64,000 nucleotides of DNA from contig NZ_CAKPUG010000001.1 in the NCBI RefSeq assembly GCF_934191625.1, positions 372,001 through 436,000 of the forward strand. The letters run 5' to 3'. The notes below the pieces were generated by a model. That model had not been told where the DNA came from. It saw only the letters and a list, made by a program, of their open reading frames with translations, and made no database searches. How positions within the stretch are numbered: the stretch's first letter is position 1; every line of letters starts with the position of its first letter. A program made the position numbers and the translations under genes. The DNA comes from an uncultured Lactococcus sp. (GTDB taxonomy: Bacteria; Bacillota; Bacilli; Lactobacillales; Streptococcaceae). Positions 26,951 through 42,200 of this stretch are shown piece after piece.

Positions 26951-27714
26951 TGCCTATTCGCGTTTTTAATGAAAATAGGCTGACTTGTCAGCCTTTTTTC
27001 TTAAAACTGATTAATTATCTGCACGTGCATGAAGATGTAACGTTACGCCAAATTCATAAAGTTTTTGAACAAGAGAAAAACTTAGATCGCCAGCTTGATA
27101 GCTTCATTGCTGCTGGTTTTATCTGGCGTAAGGATAAACGTTATGGTAATAATTTTAAAGTTTTTACGGATACCGATTTCGATCTCGTTTCAAAAATAAG
27201 TCCTGTAACTATTAATGTCTATGAGGACCCCTTTTTTGTGGCAACGGGAAGTCAAGTAGAGCAGAGACTTGCTCAGTCCATTGTCCAACAAAAGCTCCAA
27301 AATAAAACCAACGCCATCACGTTACATTTTTCAAGTCGATATGATTTGGCCACTGATAGTTTATTTAACTATTTTTATAAGGTGGCACATCATCTACCTC
27401 TCACGATACTTGAGCAAGAGGTATATCAAATTATAGGTGATGTTGATCCTGAGTATGCTCTGAAATACATGACGAGCTTTTTACTTAAATTTACACGTAA
27501 AGATGTCGTCAAAGCCCGACCAGATATTTTCATTAGAGCTTTAGAAAAATATGGCTACATCTCTGCAGTAGGTGAACGAGAGTATATGTCAAATCTTGAG
27601 TTTAATGACACACTTCAACTTGAAGAGATTTATTTTGATTCTCCTCAAGACTTCATCTCCGCTCAAATCCAACAAACAAAGGTATTAAATAACTTCATTT
27701 CCATAGGAGGATAA
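26950..27714 (+). CDS. DUF1803-like protein of unknown function
   Basis: 254-residue soluble protein, probably the DUF1803 family that follows ppaC in streptococci; this is a judgement from context and length, not a search. The first 75 residues look like a small winged-helix domain ([20 protein letters not shown] then [20 protein letters not shown]). The rest is mixed helix/strand with no catalytic motif I recognise. It shares one base with ppaC and lies 2 nt before pepT, so all three form an operon. Confidence 0.7.
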
Positions 27715-27716
27715 AA

Positions 27717-28958
27717 ATGAAATACGAAAAATTGTTACCCCGTTTCCTTGATTATGTTAAAGTGAACACACGTTCAGATGAAAATTCAACAACTGTTCCA
27801 TCTGTTCCGGCTCTTGTCGACTTTGCTCACAAAATGGCAGATGAGATGCGTGAAATTGGTATCCAAGATGTCCACTATCTTGAATCAAATGGTTATGTTG
27901 TAGGGACTATCCCAGCGACGACAGACAAAAATGTCCGTAAAATTGGTTTAATTTCTCACATGGATACAGCAGACTTTAATGCTGAAGGTATCAATCCACA
28001 AATCCTTGAAAACTATGATGGTGAGTCTGTTATTAAACTTGGTGATTCTGGTTTCAAGCTTGATCCAGCCGAGTTTCCAAATTTGAAAAACTACAAAGGT
28101 CAAACTTTAATCCATACGGATGGTACAACATTGCTGGGTGCGGATGACAAATCTGGTATTGCTGAAATCATGACTTTGGCTGATTATTTAATTAATATCA
28201 ATCCTGATTTTGAACATGGTGAAATCCGTATTGGTTTTGGTCCGGATGAAGAAATCGGTACAGGTGCTGATCGCTTTGATGTTGAGGATTTCAATGTTGA
28301 CTTTGCTTATACTGTGGATGGTGGACCCCTTGGCGAATTGGAATATGAAACATTCTCAGCTGCGGGAGCTGTTTTAGAGTTTCAAGGTAAAAATGTTCAC
28401 CCAGGTACAGCCAAAAATACAATGATTAACGCTTTGCAATTAGCAATGGATTATCATGCTCAATTGCCAGAATTTGATCGACCAGAAAAAACAGAAGGAC
28501 GTGAGGGTTTCTTCCACCTCTTGAAATTAGATGGTACTGTCGAAGAAGCACGCGCGCAATACATTATTCGCGACCATGCTGAAGATAAATTCAATGAACG
28601 CAAGGCGTTAATGCAAGAAATTGCTGATAAAATGAATGCTGAACTTGGTTCTGAACGTGTGAAAGCAACAATCAAAGATCAATATTACAATATGGCTCAA
28701 GTTATTGAGAAAGACATGTCAATCATTGATCTTGCTGAAGAAGCAATGAAAAACTTGAACATCGAACCAAAAATTGAACCTGTGCGTGGTGGTACAGATG
28801 GCTCTAAGATTTCATTTATGGGCTTACCAACACCAAATATCTTTGCTGGCGGGGAAAATATGCACGGTCGTTTTGAGTTTGTAAGCTTACAAACCATGGA
28901 AAAAGCAGTTGATGTGCTTCTCGAAATGCTCAAACTCAATACTAAAGTTGAAAAATAA
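27717..28958 (+). CDS. pepT: Peptidase T (tripeptidase)
   Basis: 413-residue M20B zinc aminopeptidase that removes the N-terminal residue of tripeptides, part of casein and peptide use. Zinc-site motifs: [53 protein letters not shown]. Full length. Shine-Dalgarno TAGGAGG overlaps the end of the upstream gene. Confidence 0.96.
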
Positions 28959-28972
28959 AGTATAATAAGCTA

Positions 28973-29086
28973 AAATAGTTCTTAAGGTTGGGAAGAATAT
29001 CTTTCCACTAGTGAATCTTTCGCGAGAACTTACTTTTCTCTTAAATAAACCAATAAACAAGTCGCCTTCTGGCGGCCTGTTTTAGG
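28973..29086 (+). ncRNA. Candidate structured RNA or leader between pepT and the YjeM-like gene
   Basis: TATAAT at 28961-28966 could start a transcript. Downstream AGTTCT (28977-28982) pairs with AGAACT (29025-29030), enclosing GGGAAG (28990-28995) pairing with CTTTCC (29001-29006), and the segment ends in the terminator hairpin at 29057-29082 with TTTT. No ORF with a ribosome site is present. It may be just the 3' UTR of pepT, a small RNA, or an attenuating leader. Confidence 0.35.
29057..29086 (+). terminator. Intrinsic terminator downstream of pepT
   Basis: AACAAGTCGCC pairs with GGCGGCCTGTT around TTCT (one mismatch, one wobble), then TTTT. The stretch 29087-29297 beyond it shows no gene; it holds only AT-rich promoter-like sequence (for example TATAAT near 29110). 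Confidence 0.75.
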
Positions 29087-29297
29087 TTTTACTTAAAATT
29101 GTCGCACAATTATAATGAATTCTAGTTATGATTGTTCTATTCTATCTTTTATAAAAGACAGTATACTTCAATGGTGAGCCTTTTGATTAATCTATCAGCT
29201 CGCCTTTACTTATGGTAATTATCCAAGTACTTTTAGTTGCTTGATTTACAAATATTTTCAATCAGTTAAACTGATTATAAAAAAAGGAGGACATTTG

Positions 29298-30899
29298 ATG
29301 TCTGATAAAGCAAAAGGGAAACTTTCTCTTGTCGGCTTGTGCCTGATGATTTTCACGTCAGTATATGGTTTTAACAATATCCCACGTGCATTCTACATGA
29401 TGGGTTATGCGGCAATTCCATGGTATATTGTTGGAGGATTATTCTTCTTCCTACCCTTTGCATTCATGGTAACTGAACTTGGTTCAGCTTTCAAAGAAGA
29501 AAAAGGTGGAATTTACTCTTGGATGGAGAAAGCAGTTGGACCAACATTCGCCTTCGTGGGAACATTTATGTGGTACGCTTCATATTTGGTATGGATGGTC
29601 AACGTTTCAAATGGGATCATGGTACCTATCACAAACATGATTTTTGGTAACTCGCTTCACGTACCAGATCCATGGATACTCTCAATCATTGCCATGATTT
29701 GGGTAGCTGCAATCACTTTCTTTGCACTTCGTGGTTTAGATGCAGTTAAAAAATTCGCTACACTTGGTGGTATTGCTGTTCTTTCATTGAATGCAATTCT
29801 TCTGATTTGTGCTCTTTTAGTTCTTATTCTTAATGGGCACCCAACAACACCGATTACTGCTGAAGCTTTTGTAACAAGTCTTAACCCTAACTTCAATAAC
29901 AGTTCTGCGATTGGATTTATTGCCTTCATGGTATTTGCTATCTTTGCATATGGAGGAGTTGAAGCTGTTGGTGGTTTGGTTGATGAAACAGACCAACCTG
30001 AGAAAAACTTCCCACGTGGTGTTGTAACATCAGCGCTCATCATTGCTATCGGTTATTCGGTAATGATTCTCTGTGTTGGTTTCTTCATGAACTACCAAAC
30101 AGGTGGCGCATTCTATGAAGGCGTAAAAGCGGGAACAATTAACCTTGGTAATGCAGGTTATGTAACAATGCAATATCTTGGTGAAGCCCTCGGTGCTGCC
30201 TTTGGTATGAGTCATTCAGGTGCGGTAGTTATCGGTTCAATTCTTGCCCGTTACATGGGTCTTGCAATGTTGCTTTCATTAATGGGTGCTTTCTTTACAT
30301 TGATCTACAGTCCAGTTAAACAAATTATTTCTGGTACACCAGATAAACTTTGGCCTGGTCGCTATGGACAACTTGATAAAGAATCAGGTATGCCAAAATT
30401 TGCCATGGTTATCCAATTCGTAATTGTCTTTGTTATCATCTTGCTGAACATGCTCATCAACCTTGGTGGTGGTGCAGAAGCAGCGGCGAAATTCTTTGCA
30501 ATCTTGACAAACATGGCCAACGTTGCGATGACATTGCCTTACCTCTTTATCGTTATTGCCTATGCAAAATTCAAGCTCAATGATAATATTGAAAAACCAT
30601 TTACGCTTTATAAATCTAAAGGTGTAGCGATGGCGGCTGTAACGGTAACATTTCTTGTTGTTGCTTTTGCAAATGCCTTCACAGTAATCCAACCTATCAC
30701 AGATTACTTTGCTTTGCCAGTTGCTGAACGCTCTGCAGTCCTTGGAGATACAATCCAAACAGTTGTATCAATGATTGCTGGTCCAGTTATCTTTGGTTTG
30801 GTAGCCTTCTTTATGATGAATCGCTACAAGAAACGTTACCCTGCAGAATATGCCTCATTAACAGACCTTTCTGAAGATGAACTACATAATGCTAAATAA
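29298..30899 (+). CDS. yjeM: APC-family amino acid permease, YjeM-like
   Basis: 533-residue transporter with about 12-14 helices. The N-terminus (LSLVGLCLMIFTSVYGFNN, then EKGGIYSWMEKAVGP) is the YjeM/glutamate:GABA antiporter-like branch of the APC superfamily. The substrate is unknown. The start at 29298 follows a strong AAAAAGGAGGAC; the longer ORF from 29241 begins within the AT-rich leader. Terminator follows. Codon use is strongly biased, suggesting good expression. Confidence 0.85.
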   Translation: MSDKAKGKLSLVGLCLMIFTSVYGFNNIPRAFYMMGYAAIPWYIVGGLFFFLPFAFMVTELGSAFKEEKGGIYSWMEKAVGPTFAFVGTFMWYASYLVWMVNVSNGIMVPITNMIFGNSLHVPDPWILSIIAMIWVAAITFFALRGLDAVKKFATLGGIAVLSLNAILLICALLVLILNGHPTTPITAEAFVTSLNPNFNNSSAIGFIAFMVFAIFAYGGVEAVGGLVDETDQPEKNFPRGVVTSALIIAIGYSVMILCVGFFMNYQTGGAFYEGVKAGTINLGNAGYVTMQYLGEALGAAFGMSHSGAVVIGSILARYMGLAMLLSLMGAFFTLIYSPVKQIISGTPDKLWPGRYGQLDKESGMPKFAMVIQFVIVFVIILLNMLINLGGGAEAAAKFFAILTNMANVAMTLPYLFIVIAYAKFKLNDNIEKPFTLYKSKGVAMAAVTVTFLVVAFANAFTVIQPITDYFALPVAERSAVLGDTIQTVVSMIAGPVIFGLVAFFMMNRYKKRYPAEYASLTDLSEDELHNAK

Positions 30900-30904
30900 A
30901 AAAG

Positions 30905-30927
30905 AGCAGCTTAGGCTGCTTTTTTTA
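30905..30927 (+). terminator. Intrinsic terminator after the YjeM-like gene
   Basis: AGCAGC pairs with GCTGCT around TTAG, then a run of seven or more T. A weaker minus-strand hairpin at 30940-30960 (TGCC/GGCA) lies at the end of murE. Confidence 0.9.
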
Positions 30928-30960
30928 TTCCAAAACATAAAAATGCCGATGAGGCAATTT

Positions 30961-32412
30961 TTAAATAAATTTTTCTGCTACGGCTCTATCACCAGGATAA
31001 GGTTCACGTTTATCATTGACTAACTGGAACTTGTCTGCACCCTTTCCAGCAATAATAACAGCATCATTTTGATCTGTCACACGTTGAATGGCTTGTTTTA
31101 TAGCCTCTGCTCGATCTGCTTCAAAATCACAGGAACGTGAAACATAACTTGCGATTTCATCAGCAATGGCTTTAGGGTCTTCGTGGTTAGAATCATCTTG
31201 AGTAAGGATGACTTCTAAGCGTTTGTGTGCTTCGATAACTTGGCCGAAATCCTTACGACGACTTTCACCTTTATTACCTGTAGCTCCTAAAACCAAGACG
31301 ATTTTACCGTTATGATGAGGTTCAACAACAGACACTAAGTTTTGCAAACTAATACCGTTATGGGCATAATCGACATAAATGCGTGCACCATTTTTTGTAG
31401 TCAACATCTCCATGCGTCCAGGTACTACGGCTTTTGCTAAGCCGTTTTTAATTTGTTCGATTGTGGCTCCTAGATGTTGGGTTGCTAAAGCTGTTGCTAA
31501 GGCGTTTTCTTGGTTAAATTTTCCGAGTAACCGAATGTCAAAGTGGTCAGCTATTTTACCGCTTGTTGTAAAATCGTGTGCATGCGATTCGATGATTTGA
31601 TTGTCAGATTTTTCACCATAAAAATCATGCGGAATTTTAAGATCTTCTAGCTCTTGTTTAATCACGTTGAAATGAGTCATTTCACTGTTGGCTACAAAAT
31701 AACCAGAGTGATGTAAAAGTTGACGCTTGCAGTAAAAATAATCTTCAAGTGTAGGGTGTTCCACGGGCCCAATGTGGTCGGGAGAGATATTAAGGAAGAC
31801 ACCAACATCGAAGTTAATAGCATAGACACGCTCAGTCTTATAAGCTTGTGAACTTACTTCCATTACAAGATGTGTCATCCCGTTATCCACAGCTTGGCGC
31901 ATCATTTTGAGTAAGTCAAGACTTTCAGGTGTAGTTAACTCAGATTTGAAGAAAGTCTTGCCATCAAGAGTTGTTTCTGCTGTAGAAAGTAAGGCAGTTT
32001 TTTGCCCATTCATTTCATCTAAGATTGATTTGGCAAAGTAAGCAGAAGTAGTCTTTCCTTTTGTGCCAGTCAAGGCTAATATTTTAAGCTCATTTTGTGG
32101 ATAATCATAAAAAGATTGAGCCAAGAGACTCATTGCGCGCTTAACATTCGAAACGATGATTGCAGGTATTTCCACTTCATAATCTATTTCAGAAATGTAG
32201 AAAGGTGCCGCTAAGTTTTCTAAATATTCTGCTTTAAAATTTAAACCTTTCGCAAAAAATAGAGTTGATTCAGAAGTGTTACGGCTATCATAGCTTAATT
32301 GTTCGAAGGTAAAATCTTCTTCCCAGTTATAGTAATATTCCTTTTTAAAGACAATCTCGTGGAAGTTTTCATCTTTTTTCAGAATTTCTAAAACATCTTG
32401 TATTTTGAGCAT
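30961..32412 (-). CDS. murE: UDP-MurNAc-L-Ala-D-Glu--L-lysine ligase
   Basis: 483-residue Mur ligase adding the third stem-peptide residue in cytosolic peptidoglycan synthesis. ATP site [14 protein letters not shown] (116-122), [21 protein letters not shown], and the substrate-recognition motif DDSNHEDP. The DDxN form, rather than the DNPR of diaminopimelate enzymes, indicates L-lysine, fitting lactococcal walls. Shine-Dalgarno AAGGAGG. Minus-strand TATAAT at 32464-32469. Alone on the minus strand. Confidence 0.95.
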
Positions 32413-32610
32413 GGATTTTTCTGCCTCCTTTTTTTATACCATTTAACTCTGGAAGAGAGCTAAATTATAAGGCACTTCACTTAAATATGGTTTGGTGCTT
32501 TTCTTATATGTAGGCTTAATTATATCATTTTCACTCATGTTTTGGTAACTTGATAGCTGTTTCATATTTACGTTAATAAGGAGGAGATAGCTTTAGCAAA
32601 GACAATTATT

Positions 32611-33492
32611 TTAGTTTTTAGGTTTTAATATAGCCTCTAAGTTTTTAATTTCCTTTTCAAGCTTCTGAGCAATTTGATAGGACTCACATAGTTCATAAAT
32701 ATATTGACATCTTTTCATTGTTTCTATAGCACTTGCATCTCCAAAAGTCACTTCAAAATGTGCTTTTTGATATATGAAATTTACTCTTTCAAAAAGATTG
32801 ATTTCTGGAATATTTAAAGTACTCACAAAGTGAATTAGTTCCTCTGCTAAGTATTTCTGCTTATGTTTTATAAAAATCTCCAGGAGGTTTATTGCAGCCT
32901 TTATTTGTGCTTTTTGAGTGAGAGCGTGTATACTCCTAAATTGTGAAGTTTTGAAGATTTTATGACTAAACCTTGATAAGGTGCCTAAGTCTAGAAGTTC
33001 TGCTACGTCACTTAACACAGCGAACTCGTACTCGCCCCATATCTTAATGTTGCTTAAGTATTGTTTAATAGCATTAAGATTTTTAGAAGAGAAGTGGAAG
33101 TGTGTATCCATCTGGCTCATAGTTGACTCTAAGCGGAATTTATCCAAGCTTAATCTTTTAGGAAGAGACGAGTTTGTGGTAAGTAAATTTTCATATCTTT
33201 GAATAATTTTTTGAAGATGGAGTGAATTACTGTTTAAATGCGCTGTATCACGTTCTTCAAGCCAGTCTAAGTGGTTGAGCTTGGTGTTGAGATGATGGAA
33301 AAATTCGTGAGAAGAGACGTTTATGTTATTCAGAAGATAGAGCAATACAAGACAGGAAACATAGCTTCGACCGTTTTCAAAATTAGAGAGTTGGGAAGTA
33401 GAGATGCAGTCTTTAGCAGCTTCCTTAAGTGCGAAATTTTTCGATGTGCGGAAATAACGATATATTTCTCCAATGGGGAGTATTTTTTTCAT
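32611..33492 (-). CDS. Rgg/GadR/MutR-family transcriptional regulator
   Basis: 293 residues. N-terminal HTH_3-type domain (about 7-62: AAKDCISTSQLSNFENGRS) and a C-terminal all-helical TPR-like domain that in Rgg proteins binds a short peptide pheromone. The family commonly controls an adjacent, divergently transcribed gene, here the secreted protein at 33767. Shine-Dalgarno AGGAGAC precedes the ATG; a TTGACA at about 33598 (minus strand) could be its -35. The gene is AT-rich. Cognate peptide not identified with certainty (see 33693). Confidence 0.88.
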   Translation of the reverse strand: MKKILPIGEIYRYFRTSKNFALKEAAKDCISTSQLSNFENGRSYVSCLVLLYLLNNINVSSHEFFHHLNTKLNHLDWLEERDTAHLNSNSLHLQKIIQRYENLLTTNSSLPKRLSLDKFRLESTMSQMDTHFHFSSKNLNAIKQYLSNIKIWGEYEFAVLSDVAELLDLGTLSRFSHKIFKTSQFRSIHALTQKAQIKAAINLLEIFIKHKQKYLAEELIHFVSTLNIPEINLFERVNFIYQKAHFEVTFGDASAIETMKRCQYIYELCESYQIAQKLEKEIKNLEAILKPKN

Positions 33493-33692
33493 AAAAGTCT
33501 CCTATATTTTTAATATCTTTACGCTTTGAAACTGTGGTAAAAGAGTAACGAATAACTTAACCGTAGTAATTCATACCTTAACTAACTCAACAAAGACTTG
33601 TCAATATATAATAATTTGAGTGGGTGCTATAACTATCTTTGATAACAGCTCTGTAGTAGACTAACTATAAGCAATGAAAGGGAATAAGGCTC

Positions 33693-33731
33693 ATGGACTA
33701 TGTTAAGTATTATTCGTATTTTTGTTGGTAA
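33693..33731 (+). CDS. Possible 12-residue signal peptide ORF (speculative)
   Basis: Between rgg and the secreted protein, ATG at 33693 opens MDYVKYYSYFCW followed by TAA. A weak AAGG lies 6 nt upstream, and a promoter-like TTGATA-17-TAACTA precedes it. Rgg pheromone genes are tiny and lie here in other systems, and aromatic C-termini occur in ComS/XIP-type peptides, but it lacks the usual basic N-terminus and longer hydrophobic body. It may be chance. Confidence 0.2.
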   Translation: MDYVKYYSYFCW

Positions 33732-33766
33732 ACTCACATATAAAAAATTCTCAGAAAGGAAATTTA

Positions 33767-34267
33767 ATGAAAAAACAAGCCAAAAAAGTGATAGTGGCTA
33801 TGGGAGTAAGTATTCTCTTGTTTTCAACAGTTGTGCCATCTATGACAGAGATAGGAAAAGCTAATAATCTTCAAGTTAATCAACAGCAAGTAGAAATTTT
33901 GAATTCAATCCAACCTGGAGATTTTGATGATACTGATCTAACTTTTTTAAGACAAAAGGAAGTTGAAATTCTAGCGAGTCAAAGTTTACCGTTATTAGCT
34001 CCTCGGGCTTTCTCACTACGAATGGTGGGGCGAAATTTAGAAGGCTTATGGCATCGTTCAGCGGGGATGCGCAGAGCCTTAGCTGCAATAGGTTTTGGTT
34101 GGTCACAAATTAAGGCTATTACACGTGGAATTTATGTCTATAGCTATAGAGTTATTGCTGCGAAAATAGCCACAATTGCCGCTTGGAATTGGACAATTGG
34201 TGCTATAATCGGAGTTTCATCAGGTGCGGCCATCTATACAATGGGCAATTTCCGTCTTTTTTATTGA
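33767..34267 (+). CDS. Secreted cationic protein, candidate bacteriocin-like precursor
   Basis: 166 residues, not recognised. The start at 33767 follows a good AGAAAGGAAA; the in-frame TTG at 33722 is rejected. Residues 1-34 form a Sec signal peptide (basic MKKQAKKV, hydrophobic core to about 24, likely cleavage after GKA). Residues 35-75 are acidic (DFDDTD, EVEI). From about 76 on, the sequence is strongly cationic and aromatic with almost no acids (RMVGRNLEGLWHRSAGMRR) and ends with a glycine/alanine-rich hydrophobic helix (IGAIIGVSSGAAIYTMG). That acidic-pro plus basic-amphipathic layout resembles antimicrobial precursors. It shares one base with a membrane-protein gene and is divergent from an Rgg regulator. 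No cysteines, no GG leader. Function is inference. Confidence 0.6.
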   Translation: MKKQAKKVIVAMGVSILLFSTVVPSMTEIGKANNLQVNQQQVEILNSIQPGDFDDTDLTFLRQKEVEILASQSLPLLAPRAFSLRMVGRNLEGLWHRSAGMRRALAAIGFGWSQIKAITRGIYVYSYRVIAAKIATIAAWNWTIGAIIGVSSGAAIYTMGNFRLFY

Positions 34268-34827
34268 TGCTTATGAAAAAAAATAACCAAACATATCTTT
34301 ATAGCAGTATGATTTTTCTTGGGTCTAGCTTTCTCCTTCTTCTCTCAGAAGAAAGTGCATTCAGGGATTTTGATTCGCTTATAGGACTTCTGGTAGTAAT
34401 TCAGGGAAGTTTCATTCTGAGTTACATTGGTATCTTCATCTTCCAAAAAGTTGCACTCATGGAAATACCAGAGGAGCTAAGCTATTACAAAAAACAACTA
34501 CCAAAAATTCAGGCTCTTTCTTACCTAATGGCTCTTTCTTTTTTTACTGTAATTTCGTCCATGGATATAACTGTAGTCTTGGCAACGGTTTTCTTAATAG
34601 TAACGAATATCGTAATCCGGGCTTATTTTATCAGTATACGTATGTTAAAGTTAATGTATATCCAACGACAGATAAAGGAGCATTTTTTTGGAGGGCTTCT
34701 AGGCTTAGCTTTTATTCTGCTTATAACTTATTTTAATTTTTATACCGTGTCATTTTTTTCGTTGCTGCTTTTGTGTCGAACGTTCTCGAATTTCAAGCTA
34801 ATTGTATCTCATGGTTCTAGTAAATAA
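34267..34827 (+). CDS. Multi-spanning membrane protein, candidate partner or immunity protein
   Basis: 186 residues, not recognised. The ATG overlaps the upstream TGA (TGATG), with a second in-frame ATG at 34273, so translation is coupled to the secreted protein. Five or six hydrophobic helices are visible: about residues 10-25, 36-60, 86-105, 108-130 and a long hydrophobic stretch 143-175. Short charged loops, no transporter or protease motif. In two-gene peptide cassettes such a protein often confers self-protection; export or processing is also possible. Confidence 0.6.
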   Translation: MLMKKNNQTYLYSSMIFLGSSFLLLLSEESAFRDFDSLIGLLVVIQGSFILSYIGIFIFQKVALMEIPEELSYYKKQLPKIQALSYLMALSFFTVISSMDITVVLATVFLIVTNIVIRAYFISIRMLKLMYIQRQIKEHFFGGLLGLAFILLITYFNFYTVSFFSLLLLCRTFSNFKLIVSHGSSK

Positions 34828-34904
34828 AGGAACTAAACTCATTCTTCTGAAAATTGTAGTTCGAAATGAAGCTTATTTTATCTAATACGTGATATAAACT
34901 TTTA

Positions 34905-34934
34905 TTGTCAAAAAAGCCTACTTCATGGTAAAAT
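34905..34934 (+). promoter_or_regulatory. Promoter giving leaderless ytgP
   Basis: TTGTCA (34905-34910), 18-bp spacer, TAAAAT (34929-34934) with TG extension, ending 6 nt before the ATG at 34941. Confidence 0.7.
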
Positions 34935-34940
34935 AGAAAA

Positions 34941-36659
34941 ATGAATAGTACAGAAATGACTGATAATCTCAGCATGGAAGAAAAGCTCCAACAAATGGAT
35001 GCGGAAACCAAGCGTAAAGAGGTTCGAGACAATAAAGCAGCACAGCAAGACACGATGATGCGCGGTACCTTATGGTTCACTCTAGCAGATATTTCGTCAC
35101 GACTCTTGGGTGCAATTTACATCATTCCGTGGTTTGCGTGGATGGGAGAACACAATAATGAAGCGAATGCTCTTTTCTCAATGGGGTATAATATTTATGC
35201 GCTATTTCTCTTGATCTCAACCGCAGGACTACCTGTAGCTATTGCGCGTGAGGTAGCTCATTACAATGCCATGGGGGATGAAAATCTAAGTAATCGATTA
35301 GTCCGTCACATCTTTATTTTTATGATAGGACTTGGTATTGTAGCAGCTGGTATAATGTATGTCGGCGCACCGGTATTAGCAGCTATGTCTGGTGGGGGAG
35401 AAAACCTCACAGAGGTAATGCGCTCACTTTCACTAGCCATTTTAATTTTCCCAGCTATGTCAGTCATTCGAGGGTATTTCCAAGGCCTTAATGACATGAA
35501 GCCAATAGCCTTGAGTCAAATTTATGAACAAGTTGTCCGTGTAATCTGGATGTTGGTATTCACGTTTATGATTATGAAGCTGGGCTTCTCAGGTGGCGAC
35601 TGGACACAAGCAGTTGTTCAATCTACAACAGCAGCCTTCATTGGTATGTTAGGCTCTTGCGCTGTTCTGCTTTGGTATTTGATCAAAAACAATATGCTCG
35701 GCAAGATTATTAATCCGGGTCCTAGTATTACAAAAATTAGTGCTTGGCGCCTCCTTTCACAAACCATCTACCAAGCTATTCCTTTTGTCGTTATTGGTTC
35801 TGCCATTCAAATTTTTAAAATTGTTGACCAAGCGACCTTTGTTACGGTCATGCGTTGGGTATCTGACTATAGTGATACACAGCTTTTAGTTTTCTTCTCA
35901 TACTTTTCTGCTAATACTGACAAGCTGACAATGATTCTTATTGGTGAGGCGATGACTTTAGGAGCTGTAGCCTTGCCCCTTATTGCCTCTAACTTTGTCA
36001 AGAAAAACTATAAAGAAACAGCGCATTTAATTTCTTACGATTTTCAACTGTTTGTGGCCTTTATGTTGCCTGCAGTCTTAGGGATGACAATATTAGCTGC
36101 CCCAATTTACACACTCTTCTATGGTTCAGTTAATAGTTTGCAGCTTGCGCTCTTTATTTGGGCTGTTCTTCAAAGTTTCTTACTGGCCTTGTACACCATG
36201 GTTGCCCCAATCTTGCAAGCTTTGCACTATTCTAAAGTGGCAATGCGTTATTTCATTATCACTTTAGTGATTAAATTAATTTTGCAAGTTCCATCCATTA
36301 TGATTTTCCACTCTTATGGTCCGCTGGTAGCAACAACTATTGCCTTCGGGTACGGAACATGGATAATCATTCGTAAGATTCATGAAGTTACGGGCTTCCG
36401 AGTGAAGAGCACATTGAAGGGAATTGTAGGTATCTCGATTATCACAGCTATTATGGCTGTGGTGACTCTCCTTCTTTACGGCTTAGTTTCGTTGATTTTG
36501 ATGCCTCTTTCTCCAGGCCATTTCAAAGCCATGCTTATCGTGGCAGTGGCTGGTGGTGGGGGGTGCTTCACCTACATTTATATTGCAGCCAAAGCAGGAT
36601 TGCTTGAAAAATTAATGGGGAGCCGAGGCACAAGACTTCGACAAAAACTTCATATTTAA
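34941..36659 (+). CDS. ytgP: Lipid II flippase-like membrane protein (YtgP/MurJ family)
   Basis: 572-residue MOP-superfamily protein with about 14 helices after a 40-residue charged cytoplasmic N-terminus. Segments such as STAGLPVAIAREVAHYN and IRGYFQGLNDMKP are typical of the YtgP branch, which flips lipid II across the membrane in streptococci and can replace MurJ. Annotated elsewhere as polysaccharide biosynthesis protein. Leaderless promoter; a terminator-like hairpin follows. murE, earlier in the same precursor pathway, lies 2.5 kb upstream. Confidence 0.85.
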   Translation: MNSTEMTDNLSMEEKLQQMDAETKRKEVRDNKAAQQDTMMRGTLWFTLADISSRLLGAIYIIPWFAWMGEHNNEANALFSMGYNIYALFLLISTAGLPVAIAREVAHYNAMGDENLSNRLVRHIFIFMIGLGIVAAGIMYVGAPVLAAMSGGGENLTEVMRSLSLAILIFPAMSVIRGYFQGLNDMKPIALSQIYEQVVRVIWMLVFTFMIMKLGFSGGDWTQAVVQSTTAAFIGMLGSCAVLLWYLIKNNMLGKIINPGPSITKISAWRLLSQTIYQAIPFVVIGSAIQIFKIVDQATFVTVMRWVSDYSDTQLLVFFSYFSANTDKLTMILIGEAMTLGAVALPLIASNFVKKNYKETAHLISYDFQLFVAFMLPAVLGMTILAAPIYTLFYGSVNSLQLALFIWAVLQSFLLALYTMVAPILQALHYSKVAMRYFIITLVIKLILQVPSIMIFHSYGPLVATTIAFGYGTWIIIRKIHEVTGFRVKSTLKGIVGISIITAIMAVVTLLLYGLVSLILMPLSPGHFKAMLIVAVAGGGGCFTYIYIAAKAGLLEKLMGSRGTRLRQKLHI

Positions 36660-36674
36660 AAATTTAAAAAGTCT

Positions 36675-36724
36675 AAAAAAGCATACTTCAGAATGCAGCG
36701 TTGTTCGGAAGTTTGCTTTTTCTT
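36675..36724 (+). terminator. Intrinsic terminator after ytgP
   Basis: AAAAAAGCATACTTC pairs with GAAGTTTGCTTTTT with small imperfections; inner GAA/TTC. Confidence 0.75.
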
Positions 36725-36762
36725 TTATGTTATAATATAAAAAACGTTTTCAGGAGGTTATA

Positions 36763-38646
36763 ATGACACGAATACAAGATGATTTATTTGCAACAGTAAA
36801 TGCCGACTGGCTTGAACAGGCACAGATACCAACTGACAAACCTCGTATCTCTGCTTTTGACGAACTGGTATTGGAAAATGAAAAAAACTTAACAGCTGAT
36901 TTGCAGCACATGTCTGTGGAACTTCCAGAGGAAAATCCAGAGCTGCTAGAAGCTATAAAATTTTACAAAAAGGCGGGAGATTGGGAAAGTCGTAACAAAA
37001 ACGATTTTTCTGCCGTAACTAGAGAAATGGGCAAGGTGAATAATCTTAATTCATTCGAGGATTTTCGTATACATTTACTTGACCTAATCTTACATTCCCA
37101 AGCTCCCCTGCCTTTCACTATCAGTGTTGATGCAGACATGAAGGATGCAGTGCATCATTCTCTGGGATTCACTGGACCTGGTCTTATTTTACCTGATACA
37201 ACTTACTATGAGGAAGCTCATCCTCGGAAAACTGAGCTTTTGAACTTTTGGCAGGAAAATACTAAAGAAATATTAGAACATTTTGGACAAGAAAATGCCC
37301 AAGAAATTGCTGCTAAAGCTGTAGCTTTTGATAGTCTGCTGGTGGAATCAGCAAATACAGCGGAAGAGTGGGCTAAATATGCGGATCTCTATAATCCAGT
37401 TCCTTTTAAGGAGTTTGTAGGACATTTTAAAAATATAGACTTTGACTCATTTATTAAAGGGTTGGTTAACACTGAGCCTGAAAAAATAGTTGTCTTTGAA
37501 AATCGTTTTTATGATTTATTTGACAATATCATTAACGAAGAAAATTGGCCATTGATTAAAGCATGGATGCTGGTGAAAATTGCACGTAAAGCAACTGGCT
37601 TACTTTCGGATGAATTACGACTTTTAGGCTCTGCATATGGTCGATTTTTATCTAATGTAGCAGACGCAAGAAGTCAAGAAAAGCATCAACTTGATGTAAC
37701 GGAGAGTTATTTCAGTCAAGTGATTGGCCTTTATTATGGCTTGAAATATTTTGGAGAAGAAGCCAAATCAGATGTTAAACATATGACTTCTGAGATGATA
37801 AAAGTTTATCAAGAACGCTTAGATAAAAATGAATGGCTCAGTCGTGCAACGATTGATAAGGCTATTGAAAAATTGAGTGCGATTACAGTTTTCATTGGCT
37901 ACCCTGATAAACTCCCAGAAATTTACAGTAGATTGAAGGTTGGAACTGGTAGTCTCTACGAAGATGCTTGTCATTTTGATGAATTGCTTACTGCCCGTCA
38001 TTATGAAAAATTTAGCGAAGATGTCGACAAGACTTTGTGGCATATGCCTGCTCATATGGTCAATGCTTACTATAGTCCTGACAGTAATACAATTGTTTTT
38101 CCGGCAGCGATCTTACAAGCACCTTTCTATAGTCTTGAGCAGTCTGCCAGTCAAAATTATGGCGGTATTGGTGCAGTAATTGCCCATGAGATTTCGCATG
38201 CTTTTGACAATAATGGAGCACAGTTTGACAAGTATGGCAACCTCAACAAATGGTGGACAGACGAAGATTATGAAGCTTTTGAGAAGAAACAAGAAGAAAT
38301 GATTGCAGCTTTTGATGGAGTGGCGACTGAAGCTGGCCCAGCAAATGGCAAGCTGATTGTTTCTGAAAATATTGCTGATCAAGGAGGGATAACAGCTGCG
38401 ATGGCTGCTGCCCAAAAAGAAGCTGATGTTAATCTCGCAGATTTCTTTAGCCAATGGGGTAAAATTTGGCGCATGAAAGCCAGCATGGAATTTCAACAAA
38501 TGCTACTTTCAATGGATGTTCATGCTCCGGCGAAATTGCGTGCCAATATTCCACCAACAAACTTAGAAGAGTTCTATCAAACTTTTGACGTGCAAGAAAG
38601 CGACGGTATGTACCGCGCACCTGACCAACGTGTAAAAATATGGTAA
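36763..38646 (+). CDS. pepO: M13-family neutral endopeptidase
   Basis: 627-residue zinc endopeptidase (neprilysin family) of the length of lactococcal PepO, acting on oligopeptides in the cytosol; no signal peptide is seen. Zinc site HEISH at about 476-480 and the third ligand in ENIADQGG at about 535 are intact. Strong AGGAGG before the ATG; TGTTATAAT promoter at 36728-36736. The 3' end overlaps the alkyltransferase-like gene by 7 nt. Confidence 0.95.
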   Translation: MTRIQDDLFATVNADWLEQAQIPTDKPRISAFDELVLENEKNLTADLQHMSVELPEENPELLEAIKFYKKAGDWESRNKNDFSAVTREMGKVNNLNSFEDFRIHLLDLILHSQAPLPFTISVDADMKDAVHHSLGFTGPGLILPDTTYYEEAHPRKTELLNFWQENTKEILEHFGQENAQEIAAKAVAFDSLLVESANTAEEWAKYADLYNPVPFKEFVGHFKNIDFDSFIKGLVNTEPEKIVVFENRFYDLFDNIINEENWPLIKAWMLVKIARKATGLLSDELRLLGSAYGRFLSNVADARSQEKHQLDVTESYFSQVIGLYYGLKYFGEEAKSDVKHMTSEMIKVYQERLDKNEWLSRATIDKAIEKLSAITVFIGYPDKLPEIYSRLKVGTGSLYEDACHFDELLTARHYEKFSEDVDKTLWHMPAHMVNAYYSPDSNTIVFPAAILQAPFYSLEQSASQNYGGIGAVIAHEISHAFDNNGAQFDKYGNLNKWWTDEDYEAFEKKQEEMIAAFDGVATEAGPANGKLIVSENIADQGGITAAMAAAQKEADVNLADFFSQWGKIWRMKASMEFQQMLLSMDVHAPAKLRANIPPTNLEEFYQTFDVQESDGMYRAPDQRVKIW

Positions 38647-38951
38647 AAGAACTTAAAGATCTTAAGCCAGAAACTCAACGAATACTGAAGGAAATCAAAG
38701 CAGTCCCCTTTGGTCAAGTGAGCTCTTACAGAGATATTGCATTGCGAGCCGGATTAATAAATGGCGCGCGGCAAGTTGCTAGAGTTCTCCACGGTTTATC
38801 AAAAACACATCACTTGCCATGGTGGCGCATCATCAGATCAGATGGCACAATAGGTTTGCATGGTGAAGGACGTATTGAACAAATTCGTTTGTTGAAATTA
38901 GAAGGTGTTGAAGTGACAGATAGAGGTAAAGTTAATCCCAAAGAAAAGTAA
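38640..38951 (+). CDS. MGMT-family alkyltransferase-like protein (ATL)
   Basis: 103-residue DNA-binding domain of O6-alkylguanine transferases. The recognition helix region GARQVARVLHG is present, but the catalytic PCHR cysteine is replaced (PWWRII), so it cannot accept alkyl groups. ATLs bind alkylated guanine and hand the lesion to nucleotide excision repair. Overlaps pepO by 7 nt, so expression is coupled to a peptidase with no obvious link. Confidence 0.85.
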   Translation: MVKELKDLKPETQRILKEIKAVPFGQVSSYRDIALRAGLINGARQVARVLHGLSKTHHLPWWRIIRSDGTIGLHGEGRIEQIRLLKLEGVEVTDRGKVNPKEK

Positions 38952-38970
38952 TTAAAAGGAATTTAGACCT

Positions 38971-38999
38971 TGTAAATACAGTCGATAAATGATATAATA
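38971..38999 (+). promoter_or_regulatory. rpoB operon promoter
   Basis: TTGTAA, 17-bp spacer, TATAAT (38994-38999); start expected near 39006, 229 nt before the rpoB start. Confidence 0.75.
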
Positions 39000-39006
39000 T
39001 AGGGTA

Positions 39007-39057
39007 ATGGTTTGTCGACAAATTCTGTGGGAAATATTGTCCCCATGGGTTTTGTAA
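39007..39057 (+). CDS. Candidate leader peptide of rpoB (16 aa)
   Basis: ATG lies 7 nt after the -10 hexamer, so it would be at the very 5' end of the message. It encodes MVCRQILWEILSPWVL and stops with TAA at 39055-39057, immediately before the terminator stem that begins at 39058. A ribosome at the stop would cover the stem's 5' arm. No experimental support. Confidence 0.35.
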   Translation: MVCRQILWEILSPWVL

Positions 39058-39089
39058 GCAACGAAACGTCAAGTTTTCGTTGCTTTTTT
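39058..39089 (+). terminator. Intrinsic terminator inside the rpoB leader (possible attenuator)
   Basis: GCAACGAAA (39058-39066) pairs with TTTCGTTGC (39075-39083), followed by TTTTTT. It lies between the promoter and rpoB, so readthrough is needed for rpoBC unless another promoter exists downstream. Confidence 0.85.
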
Positions 39090-39092
39090 GCC

Positions 39093-39168
39093 GTTTCTGA
39101 ACTATGAAAAATCGAAAAAGTAATGAAAAAGACAAACTACTGACTTTTCAGAATTTTTCATAAGAAAC
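39093..39168 (+). promoter_or_regulatory. Long-range stem in the rpoB leader
   Basis: GTTTCT...ATGAAAAAT (39093-39112) is complementary to ATTTTTCAT...AGAAAC (39153-39168); inside, AAGT and ACTT can extend it. A smaller hairpin CCAG-AAAAA-CTGG follows just before the Shine-Dalgarno. Confidence 0.5.
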
Positions 39169-39234
39169 TTAAAATCGACAAATCTTGTATAACACATCCA
39201 GAAAAACTGGAAAAATAGAATGAGGAGAATCAAC

Positions 39235-42200
39235 TTGGCAGGACATGACGTAAAATACGGTAAACACCGTACAAGACGCAGTTTTTCACGAATCAAAGAA
39301 GTAATTGGTTTGCCGAACTTGATCGAAGTTCAAACAGCAAGTTATCAAAACTTCCTTGACGAAGGTTTGGCTAACGTCTTCAAAGAAATGTTTCCAATTG
39401 ACAACTTTGCGGGCACAATGGAGCTTGAATTTGTTGGATATGAAATGAAAGCCCCTAAATACACTGTGGATGAAGCCCGTGCTCACGATGCAAACTATTC
39501 TGCACCAATTCATGTGACTTTCCGCCTTGTAAATAAAGAAACAGGCGAATTGAAAACACAAGAAGTTTTCTTCGGTGATTTCCCACTTATGACTGAAATG
39601 GGTACATTCATCAACAACGGTTCTGAACGTTTGATCGTCAGCCAGTTGGTACGTAGCCCAGGTTCATACTTCCACCTTAAAACAGATAAAAATGGGTTGG
39701 AATCTTATGGTCATACAACTATTCCTAACCGTGGTGCGTGGTTTGAATTAGATACAGACGCTAAGGGTGTTGGTTATGTACGTATTGACCGTACACGTAA
39801 GTTAACATTTACCACAATGTTGCGTGCACTTGGTTTTGGTAGTGACGATGAAATCCTTGAACTTATGGGACCAAGTGAACTCCTCAATACAACATTAGGT
39901 AAAGATGTTCACAAAAACCCTTCAGACACTCGTGTTGAAGAAGCTCTTAAAGATATCTATGACCGCCTTCGTCCGGGAGAACCTAAAACAGCGGACAGCT
40001 CACGTGGACTTTTGATTGCACGTTTCTTCGACCCACGTCGTTACGACTTTGCACCTGTTGGTCGTTATAAATTCAACAAAAAACTTGCCCTTAAAAACCG
40101 CATCCTCGGTTTGACTTTGGCTGAGCCTATCGTTGACCCTGAAACGGGCGAAATTCTCGTTGAATCTGATACTCTCGTAACACGTGATGTTTTAGATTCT
40201 ATCGAAAACCTTTTGGACAATGGTCTTAATACAACAGTTTATCAACCATCTGAAGATGCTGTTATTCCAGAACCAATTGAACTTCAAACATTGAAAGTTT
40301 ACTCTCCAAAAGATCCAGAACGTGTAGTGACATTGATTTCTAACGGTCAAATTCCTGCAGAAAATCGTGTGTTGATGCCTGCAGATGTGATTGCTAACAT
40401 CAACTACTGGTTAGGTCTTTCTGAAGGTATTGGTAAAGTTGACGATATCGACCACTTAGGTAACCGTCGTATCCGTTCAGTGGGTGAATTGCTTCAAAAC
40501 CAAGTACGTATCGGACTTTCACGTATGGAACGTGTGATCCGTGAGCGTATGTCATCTTCTGAAAATGAAAATATGACACCACAAGGATTGATCAACATTC
40601 GTCCTGTAACAGCTGCAATCAAAGAATTCTTTGGTTCATCACAGTTGTCACAATTTATGGACCAACACAATCCTTTGTCAGAGCTTTCACACAAACGCCG
40701 TTTCTCTGCCTTAGGTCCTGGTGGTATCTCACGTGACCGTGCTTCATATGAAGTACGTGACGTTCACTACACTCACTATGGCCGTATGTGTCCAATCGAG
40801 ACTCCTGAGGGACCAAATATCGGGTTGATCAACAACTTGTCATCATATGCCAAAATCAATGAATATGGTTTTATTATGTCACCATACCGTCGTATTGATC
40901 GTGCAACGGGTACAGTTACGGATGAAGTCGAGTATTTGACAGCTGACGAAGAGGACAACTACACAGTTGCCCAAGCTAACTCACCATTGACGGATGATAA
41001 TAAATTTGTCAACGAAACAGTAATGGCACGTCACGTTGGTAACAATATTGAGGTTGATGCTTCAACTGCAGACTACATGGACGTTTCTCCTAAACAGGTT
41101 ATTGCGGTAGCAGCAGCTTGTATTCCTTTCTTGGAAAATGACGACTCCAACCGTGCGCTTATGGGTGCCAACATGCAACGTCAAGCCGTTCCATTGATTG
41201 ATCCGCATGCACCTTGGATTGGTACAGGTATGGAACATCAAACAGCACGTGACTCAGGTGCTGCTGTGATTGCTAAACATGATGGTACTGTTGAATATGT
41301 AGATGCTGACGAAATACGTGTCCGTCGTACATCAGGTGAGCTTGATATTTATAACATCATGAAATACCGTCGTTCTAACTCAGGGACTTCATATAACCAA
41401 CGTCCACTTGCTGAACTTGGCGATAAAGTAGAAGCTGGTGATATCATCGGTGATGGCCCATCAATGGAAAAAGGAGAAATGGCACTCGGCCAAAACCCAC
41501 TTGTGGCTTACATGACTTGGGAAGGTTATAACTTCGAGGATGCTATTATCATGTCTGAACGTTTGATTAAAGATGACGTTTATACATCTATTGCTATTGA
41601 AGAGTATGAATCAGAAACACGCGATACAAAGCTTGGCCCTGAAGAAATTACACGCGAAATTCCAAATATTGGTGATGAAGCCCTTAAAAACTTAGACGAA
41701 GACGGTATTATCCGCATTGGTGCTGAGGTTGAAGATGGGGACTTGCTCGTTGGTAAAGTAACACCAAAAGGTGAAACTGATCCAACACCTGAAGAACGTC
41801 TTCTTCGTGCTATCTTCGGTGAAAAAGCACGTGAAGTTCGTGATACATCACTCCGTGTACCACATGGTGGTGGCGGTATCGTGCATGATGTTCGTGTCTT
41901 CACACGTGAAAATGGTGATGAATTGCCATCAGGTGTGAATAAATTGGTACGTGTCTTCATTTCACAAAAACGTAAAATCCACGTTGGGGATAAAATGGCC
42001 GGACGTCACGGTAACAAAGGTGTCGTTTCAAATATCGTTCCTGTAGAGGATATGCCTTACTTACCAGACGGTACACCAATCGATATTATGTTGAATCCAC
42101 TTGGTGTCCCATCTCGTATGAATATCGGACAAGTTATGGAACTCCACTTAGGTATGGCTGCACGTACATTAGGTATTCATATTGCTTCACCAGTCTTCGA

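Follow-up and report, generated by a model that had tools for sequence, protein, structure and literature searches.

A putative bacteriocin cassette of Lactococcus with an Rgg-type regulator, a Sec-type precursor and a membrane partner

What is made by a locus in which a gene for an Rgg-type regulator diverges from two closely spaced genes, here called A and B, the first for a protein with a secretion signal and the second for a membrane protein? The question was raised by a preliminary description of a stretch of 64,000 nucleotides of Lactococcus DNA (referred to below as the window), in which it was proposed that the basic tail of A is released as an antimicrobial or signalling peptide, and that B protects the producer or helps export. 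From the sequence comparisons presented here, it is most likely that the cassette encodes a regulator, a secreted protein with antibacterial action and a membrane protein by which the producer is protected.

Layout, location and rate of change of the cassette

The features of the cassette are listed in Table 1. The Rgg gene is divergent from the A–B pair, as first described, and this layout recurs in relatives. Rgg, A and B lie between murE and the same polysaccharide flippase gene (names taken from a reading of the ORFs) in the window, in L. petauri (L001), in L. formosensis (L002) and also in genome G005, a recurrence which argues that the layout is not due to chance. The same two genes flank the locus in G006, G008 and G010. 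Thus, its place is identical in all seven genomes read, and Rgg adjoins it in every one; the conserved link with Rgg on which the first proposal had been made to depend is present. The window flanks are 88-96% identical to those of L. petauri, L. formosensis and G005, which places the window in the L. garvieae group.

Table 1. Features of the cassette, in positions of the window
Feature	Position	Strand	Basis or remark
Rgg-family regulator, 293 aa	32611..33492	-	Divergent from gene A; Rgg_C, RGG_Cterm and MutR-named PDB chain matches
Divergent intergenic region	33493..33766	.	Six-locus alignment; candidate promoter and putative regulator sites
Likely ribosome-binding site of gene A, AAAGG	33755..33759	+	7 nt before ATG; sequence reading
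Gene A, 166 aa	33767..34267	+	ORF
A residues 1-32, Sec-type signal sequence	33767..33862	+	Hydropathy, charge
A residues 33-80, acidic pro-region ending PLLAPR (predicted cut)	33863..34006	+	Charge
A residues 81-166 and stop, cationic mature domain	34007..34267	+	Charge; GG-peptide homology
GG-peptide homology in A, residues 88-166	34028..34264	+	Sequence comparison
Gene B, multi-span membrane protein, likely immunity	34267..34827	+	Conserved start 34273

Gene B had been described as overlapping A and as encoding a 186-residue multi-span protein. A start at 34267 yields both this length and an overlap of 1 nt. The copies from L. petauri, L. formosensis and G005 have just the second of the two ATGs (34273 in the window); its use would give 184 residues and a gap of 5 nt after the A stop codon. 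The multi-span character was upheld by hydropathy, with four separate 19-residue segments at 1.6 or above and overlapping stretches (residues 9-27, 33-68, 78-129 and 135-181) at 1.3 or above.

In a large protein collection, eight clusters, including A itself, were matched by A at E values up to 10. Two of them carry a name, from L. formosensis and L. petauri, and a scan of genome contigs yielded two loci, from the same two species. Nine of 18 genomes of the genus gave some match to an A profile at E values up to 10. An intact, full-length A is carried by two of these, G001 (the L. petauri record) and G005, and a broken one by two others, G008 and G010; the remaining matches are to the signal or to other short stretches. 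B was found in five of the 18 genomes, and the same five were recovered among 335 genomes of the family. Seven records were matched by A in a plasmid collection (E values from 0.2 to 8), none of them convincing, and a phage collection gave no match.

Rates of change were estimated by the NG86 method on few sequences, and the figures are accordingly rough. Between the window and L. petauri, dN was 0.17 for A, 0.10 for B and 0.12 for Rgg, as compared with 0.009 for murE, 0.010 for the flippase, 0.031 for PepO and 0.007 for PepT. The corresponding values against L. formosensis were 0.18, 0.16 and 0.14 for the cassette and 0.027, 0.021, 0.030 and 0.006 for the flanking genes. It is apparent that the cassette changes at the protein level several times faster than its neighbours. 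The dS of A is also raised (1.0), and dN/dS is below 1 for the cassette and well below 1 for A, so that the fast change alone is no sign of positive selection.

The A precursor and the relatives of its cargo

The division of A into a Sec signal, an acidic middle and a basic C-terminal half was borne out by hydropathy and charge. The signal is hydrophobic, with a possible cut between VPSMTEIGKA and NN; the pro-region has a net charge of -4 and a pI of 4.1, and the tail (9.5 kDa) a net charge of +9 and a pI of 11.3. The reported lack of cysteines and of a double-glycine (GG) leader was confirmed, in that no cysteine occurs in the sequence, tail included, and a Sec-type signal stands at the start in place of the MELV...GG layout of C39-type leaders. 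An A-like signal was seen in another Lactococcus precursor and, weakly, in EntV-type proteins. The motif PLLAPR is invariant in four aligned rows, and the predicted cut near residue 80 follows the domain boundary there. By eye, the junction motifs of A and of the precursors L013, L014 and L016, described below, are alike (PLLAPR, PLLRR, PMRLR and PLRAR), as if one protease might serve several precursors. A housekeeping envelope family had been named as the affiliation that would tell against a peptide system; A has no Pfam or NCBIfam match at E values up to 10. An AlphaFold2 model from 10 rows (pLDDT 49) gave no usable Foldseek match (best E value, 0.96).

The A profile matched 11 of the 335 family genomes at an E value of 0.01. 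Beyond A itself, these matches were to the signal or other short stretches and to short ORFs in G273 and G231. The latter encode 103-aa peptides with a classic GG leader, and they match A residues 88-166. In a one-pair BLASTP comparison, A and the G273 peptide gave 42% over 79 aa (E value, 1e-8). Residues 73-166 of A, compared with 113 clipped GG peptides, reached 52.4 bits, as against a maximum of 32.7 in 300 shuffles, and a profile of GG rows only, free of A rows, aligned with the A profile in hhalign at 98.1% (E value, 7.2e-14). By these comparisons, A is homologous over its C-terminal 79 residues to the mature portion of GG-leader peptides. In the alignment with the GG-only profile, on which the estimate of the cut site rests, cargo position 6 is matched to A residue 88. 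This would put the GG cut at about A residue 82-83, not far from the predicted cut between PLLAPR and AF. A itself is not a GG peptide.

In G273, the GG-peptide gene follows genes for a C39-peptidase ABC exporter (TIGR01193 above cut-off) and an accessory protein, the latter read in two pieces, and there is a divergent HTH regulator. In the G231 locus, the exporter is present together with an uninterrupted accessory gene, and the regulator lies on the same strand, not divergently from the exporter. HTH-type models are matched by both regulators; Rgg C-terminal models gave no match to the G273 regulator in either library, nor to the G231 regulator in NCBIfam. No C39-peptidase ABC exporter or accessory protein was seen by eye near A among the large ORFs of window positions 27000-41000.

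For the G273 peptide, the named record is from an unclassified Streptococcus. The G307 peptide is identical to one of S. suis, and other full-cover GG relatives occur in S. ruminantium and Enterococcus cecorum. Among the best 120 of 337 matches (E values up to 1), the full-cover relatives, where named, are all 'hypothetical protein', bacteriocin-like names go with matches of 22-57% coverage that largely reflect the shared leader, and many matches share the leader only and are uninformative on cargo. The leader of the relatives reads MELVLPNNYV...DGG, with a proline at -18. According to PMC7018657, proline -18 matters for export by RtgAB and is also present in the RtgG signal sequence, and the pneumococcal rtg locus is under Rgg/SHP-like control (RtgR/S). 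SP_0115 is RtgC, which is listed among the peptides exported by RtgAB (PMC7595303, Table 1). From leader and exporter, we infer that the A-type peptides belong among the rtg peptides; of the rtg paper's own peptides, those named SP_0115 were compared with A.

The leaders that accompany this cargo were surveyed with a profile that held both A and GG rows. It matched 11 of the 335 genomes at an E value of 0.001; the cargo is full length and unbroken behind a GG leader in four (G273, G231, G307 and G308) and in a Sec precursor in two (G001 and G005), and it is partial or broken in five (G008, G010, G209, G287 and G306). A second profile, of SP_0115-type cargo (five rows, two with their GG leaders kept, and the L013 row from G008), matched 12 of the 335 genomes. 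Here, a GG leader is present in eight (G209, G261, G285, G065, G206, G254, G320, with an internal stop, and G039) and a Sec signal with an acidic region in two (G008 and G010, the start in G010 being near a contig end). G014 combines a Sec signal with a longer N-terminal region, and G004 shows an open frame with no visible leader. The last four genomes are within the 18-genome Lactococcus set, and the eight GG genomes are outside it.

The Sec precursor in G008 (L013, 1501-2169) and G010 (L015) has 223 aa, with an acidic pro-region and an RtgC/SP_0115-like cationic cargo, the link to RtgC being by name. L013 scored 91.3 bits against GG cargo, as compared with at most 30.0 in 300 shuffles. No clear kinship between A-type and SP_0115-type cargo was seen (one pair, 16 bits, E value 0.054). 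The cargo of L016, L008 and L019 did not score above shuffles as GG-peptide homologues, and that of L084 was barely above them (32.7 versus 31.6 bits), so no homology is claimed.

We lean towards the view that the same presumed killing domain is carried by a GG leader and ABC exporter in streptococci and by a Sec signal and acidic pro-domain in lactococci. Cargo of at least two types (A-like and RtgC/SP_0115-like) would have moved between export routes, with the pro-domain taking over the silencing by the GG leader; in Lactococcus, Sec signal and acidic pro-region stand in place of the GG leader, as in EntV.

Several further precursors were observed. Two small membrane-protein ORFs follow L013 in G008, and the N-terminal 90 residues of the L013/L015 precursor align to the EntV-type profile (hhalign, 95%). 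L014, L016 and L018 (in G005, G008 and G010) form a further family of Sec precursors, in which the tail has MNAWAAG..YAGG and a gene for a small membrane protein lies downstream; the G008 copy is open, that of G005 is broken and that of G010 shortened. L008 (1501-2118 in G016) is a 206-aa Sec precursor with a glycine/alanine-rich tail, adjoining an Rgg-type gene (RGG_Cterm, E value 3e-32) and a small membrane protein, and its locus is possibly another such cassette. L113 (808-1821 in G014), a Sec protein of 338 aa, has a long N-region and ends in SP_0115-like cargo. A gene for a small membrane protein overlaps it, and L113 represents a third leader type for one cargo.

Gene B, regulation and the proposed mechanism

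B has no Pfam or NCBIfam match at E values up to 10, hence none to a protease or transporter family in those libraries, and no match among 124 ORFs in eight loci with related cargo. The best match of its predicted fold (pLDDT 62) was to MurJ (E value 3.5, probability 0.09), which is not believed.

At the main locus of G006, Rgg, B (39% identical) and the flanks are kept, and A is a 16-codon remnant. A second locus in G008 and G010 holds Rgg, an internally deleted A, of which the start of the signal and the last residues remain, and an open B paralogue. The deletions in G006 and in G008/G010 end differently, and at least two events are therefore likely; that of G008 and G010 may be one shared event. 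The presence of an open B where A is a remnant fits a protective role, as had been proposed at the outset, and is the behaviour expected of an immunity gene whose toxin has gone; by this pattern B is likely an immunity protein. Two observations count against this reading. The orphan B of G008 and G010 is loosely constrained (dN 0.049, dS 0.107), and at the main locus of these genomes (L005 and L006) both A and B are broken while Rgg is intact.

It is probable, on this evidence, that A is a bacteriocin precursor exported by Sec and cleaved at about residue 80, and that B is its immunity protein. A would be exported by Sec and lose about 32 residues to signal peptidase. The acidic pro-region would silence the cationic helical domain until cleavage near PLLAPR-AF (residue 80) by a protease that is extracellular or located in the cell wall. 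Once released, this domain, about 86 residues long, would attack related bacteria, probably at the membrane, and B, made from the same transcript as A, would sit in the membrane and protect the producer. The divergent Rgg protein would switch the pair on. It counts against a bacteriocin that no function of the GG peptides is proven in PMC7018657 or PMC7595303, those of rtg being only supposed bacteriocins to their discoverers (PMC7018657).

Three alternatives were weighed. A could instead give rise to a secreted factor that acts as a signal or against biofilms, with B as a membrane receptor or transporter. Rgg proteins answer peptides. RtgR/S is an example (PMC7018657), and EntV, which has the same precursor layout, restrains a fungus too, according to PMC9562342. 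B, were it a receptor, would be expected to decay once its ligand is gone, yet it is open where A is a remnant; the tail of A is, moreover, large and very basic, and its cargo is common to presumed bacteriocins. We regard this alternative as improbable. The export role that the preliminary description had also allowed for B, in which B would be a helper in export or processing of A and no immunity protein, is less probable again. B does lie directly after A and is multi-span, but it outlives A in G006, G008 and G010, it lacks a protease or transporter family match, and Sec export needs, to our knowledge, no dedicated partner. That A and B are an envelope pair specific to the lineage, serving housekeeping or stress, is very unlikely, since, although the named matches to full-length A and to B are from L. 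garvieae, L. formosensis and L. petauri only and all five B-bearing family genomes are within the genus set, A has been lost with B kept, the proteins change fast and the cargo is homologous to GG peptides.

The regulator of the window is an Rgg protein, with an N-terminal HTH and the Rgg C-terminal domain. Its C-terminal part matches Rgg_C (Pfam, E value 3.6e-18) and RGG_Cterm (NCBIfam, 3.8e-17), both above cut-off, its N-terminus matches HTH_3 below cut-off (0.011), and the protein matches a PDB chain named as a MutR-family regulator (4.8e-16). The A–B pair is its presumed target. In an alignment of the Rgg–A intergenic region from six loci, three islands are kept wholly or largely: CAATATATAATAATTT at 33602-33617, ACTAACTATAAGC at 33660-33672, which is poorly kept in G006, and TTATTCGTAT at 33710-33719, the first eight bases of which are present in all six loci while the surrounding reading frame is not kept. 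The last, lying before A, is a candidate promoter or binding site. A consensus promoter scan of the region found sites no richer than in shuffles, which would fit an activator-dependent promoter. No pheromone ORF with a start kept in all four species was found. A candidate pheromone ORF before A (33693-33731, MDYVKYYSYFCW) was rejected; its ATG is there in two of the four species, and its kept part resembles a DNA element. The main-locus Rgg of G008 and G010 is constrained (dN 0.016 and dS 0.150 for the pair of genomes), and its survival beside broken A and B suggests that Rgg may have other targets.

Comparison with known systems

No description of the cassette or of the leader swap was found in titles and abstract openings among the open-access papers listed for L. 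garvieae, garvicins, Rgg, EntV, rtg, SP_0115 and leader exchange, and the word Lactococcus is absent from the main text of a 2026 review of streptococcal Rgg systems (PMC13361665). The present data add relatives of rtg-type cargo behind a Sec signal and place A in a transporter-free three-gene cassette with its own membrane partner. If the proposal is true, the export route of a bacteriocin can be swapped and its active domain kept. As the cassette is Sec-borne and transporter-free, and nature has already made partner-only versions (B without A), activity and immunity are testable in laboratory L. lactis.

Closticin 574, a Sec-type prepro-bacteriocin with an active C-terminus, may be likened to A. 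The closest precursor layout is that of EntV (enterocin O16, EF1097), which is of similar length and, like A, has a Sec signal, an acidic N-terminal half and a cationic C-terminal half. EntV is a 170-aa Sec precursor from which a protease frees a 68-aa active C-half (PMC9562342). The NCBIfam model EntV_fam (NF058576) was over cut-off in eight of the 335 family genomes, one copy having internal stops. Among 17 EntV-type loci read, over or under the family cut-off, a small membrane protein is right behind the gene in 11, and a divergent Rgg-like gene accompanies precursor and small membrane protein in three (L060, L062 and L068). Rgg_C was just above cut-off for the regulators of L060 and L068, the two tested, and the L068 regulator gave 28% over 178 residues with the window Rgg. 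Membership of A in the EntV family was nevertheless rejected. A gave no match to NF058576, there being no NCBIfam match at E values up to 10; two cysteines that are invariant in all 13 aligned EntV-type rows are absent from A; and hhalign of A with the EntV-type profile covered 35 signal columns only (65.7%). A would thus share EntV's way of working but not its family.

The rtg GG peptides differ from A in having an rtg-like leader, where A has a Sec signal and acidic pro-region, and the 314-aa membrane protein encoded after the GG gene in L092 and L093 is unlike B. In contrast, the mature domains are homologous, the GG copies of G273 and G231 lack cysteine, as does A, and both kinds of locus have a regulator and membrane proteins near a presumed bacteriocin. 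The first reading of the locus is supported as regards the tail, now found homologous to cargo of the rtg kind, and as regards a B kept without A; its export-helper option is disfavoured, and its statement that the system fits no class that can be named is corrected. With a cargo that fits the rtg-type GG peptide group and a precursor layout that is EntV's, A is less isolated than was thought.
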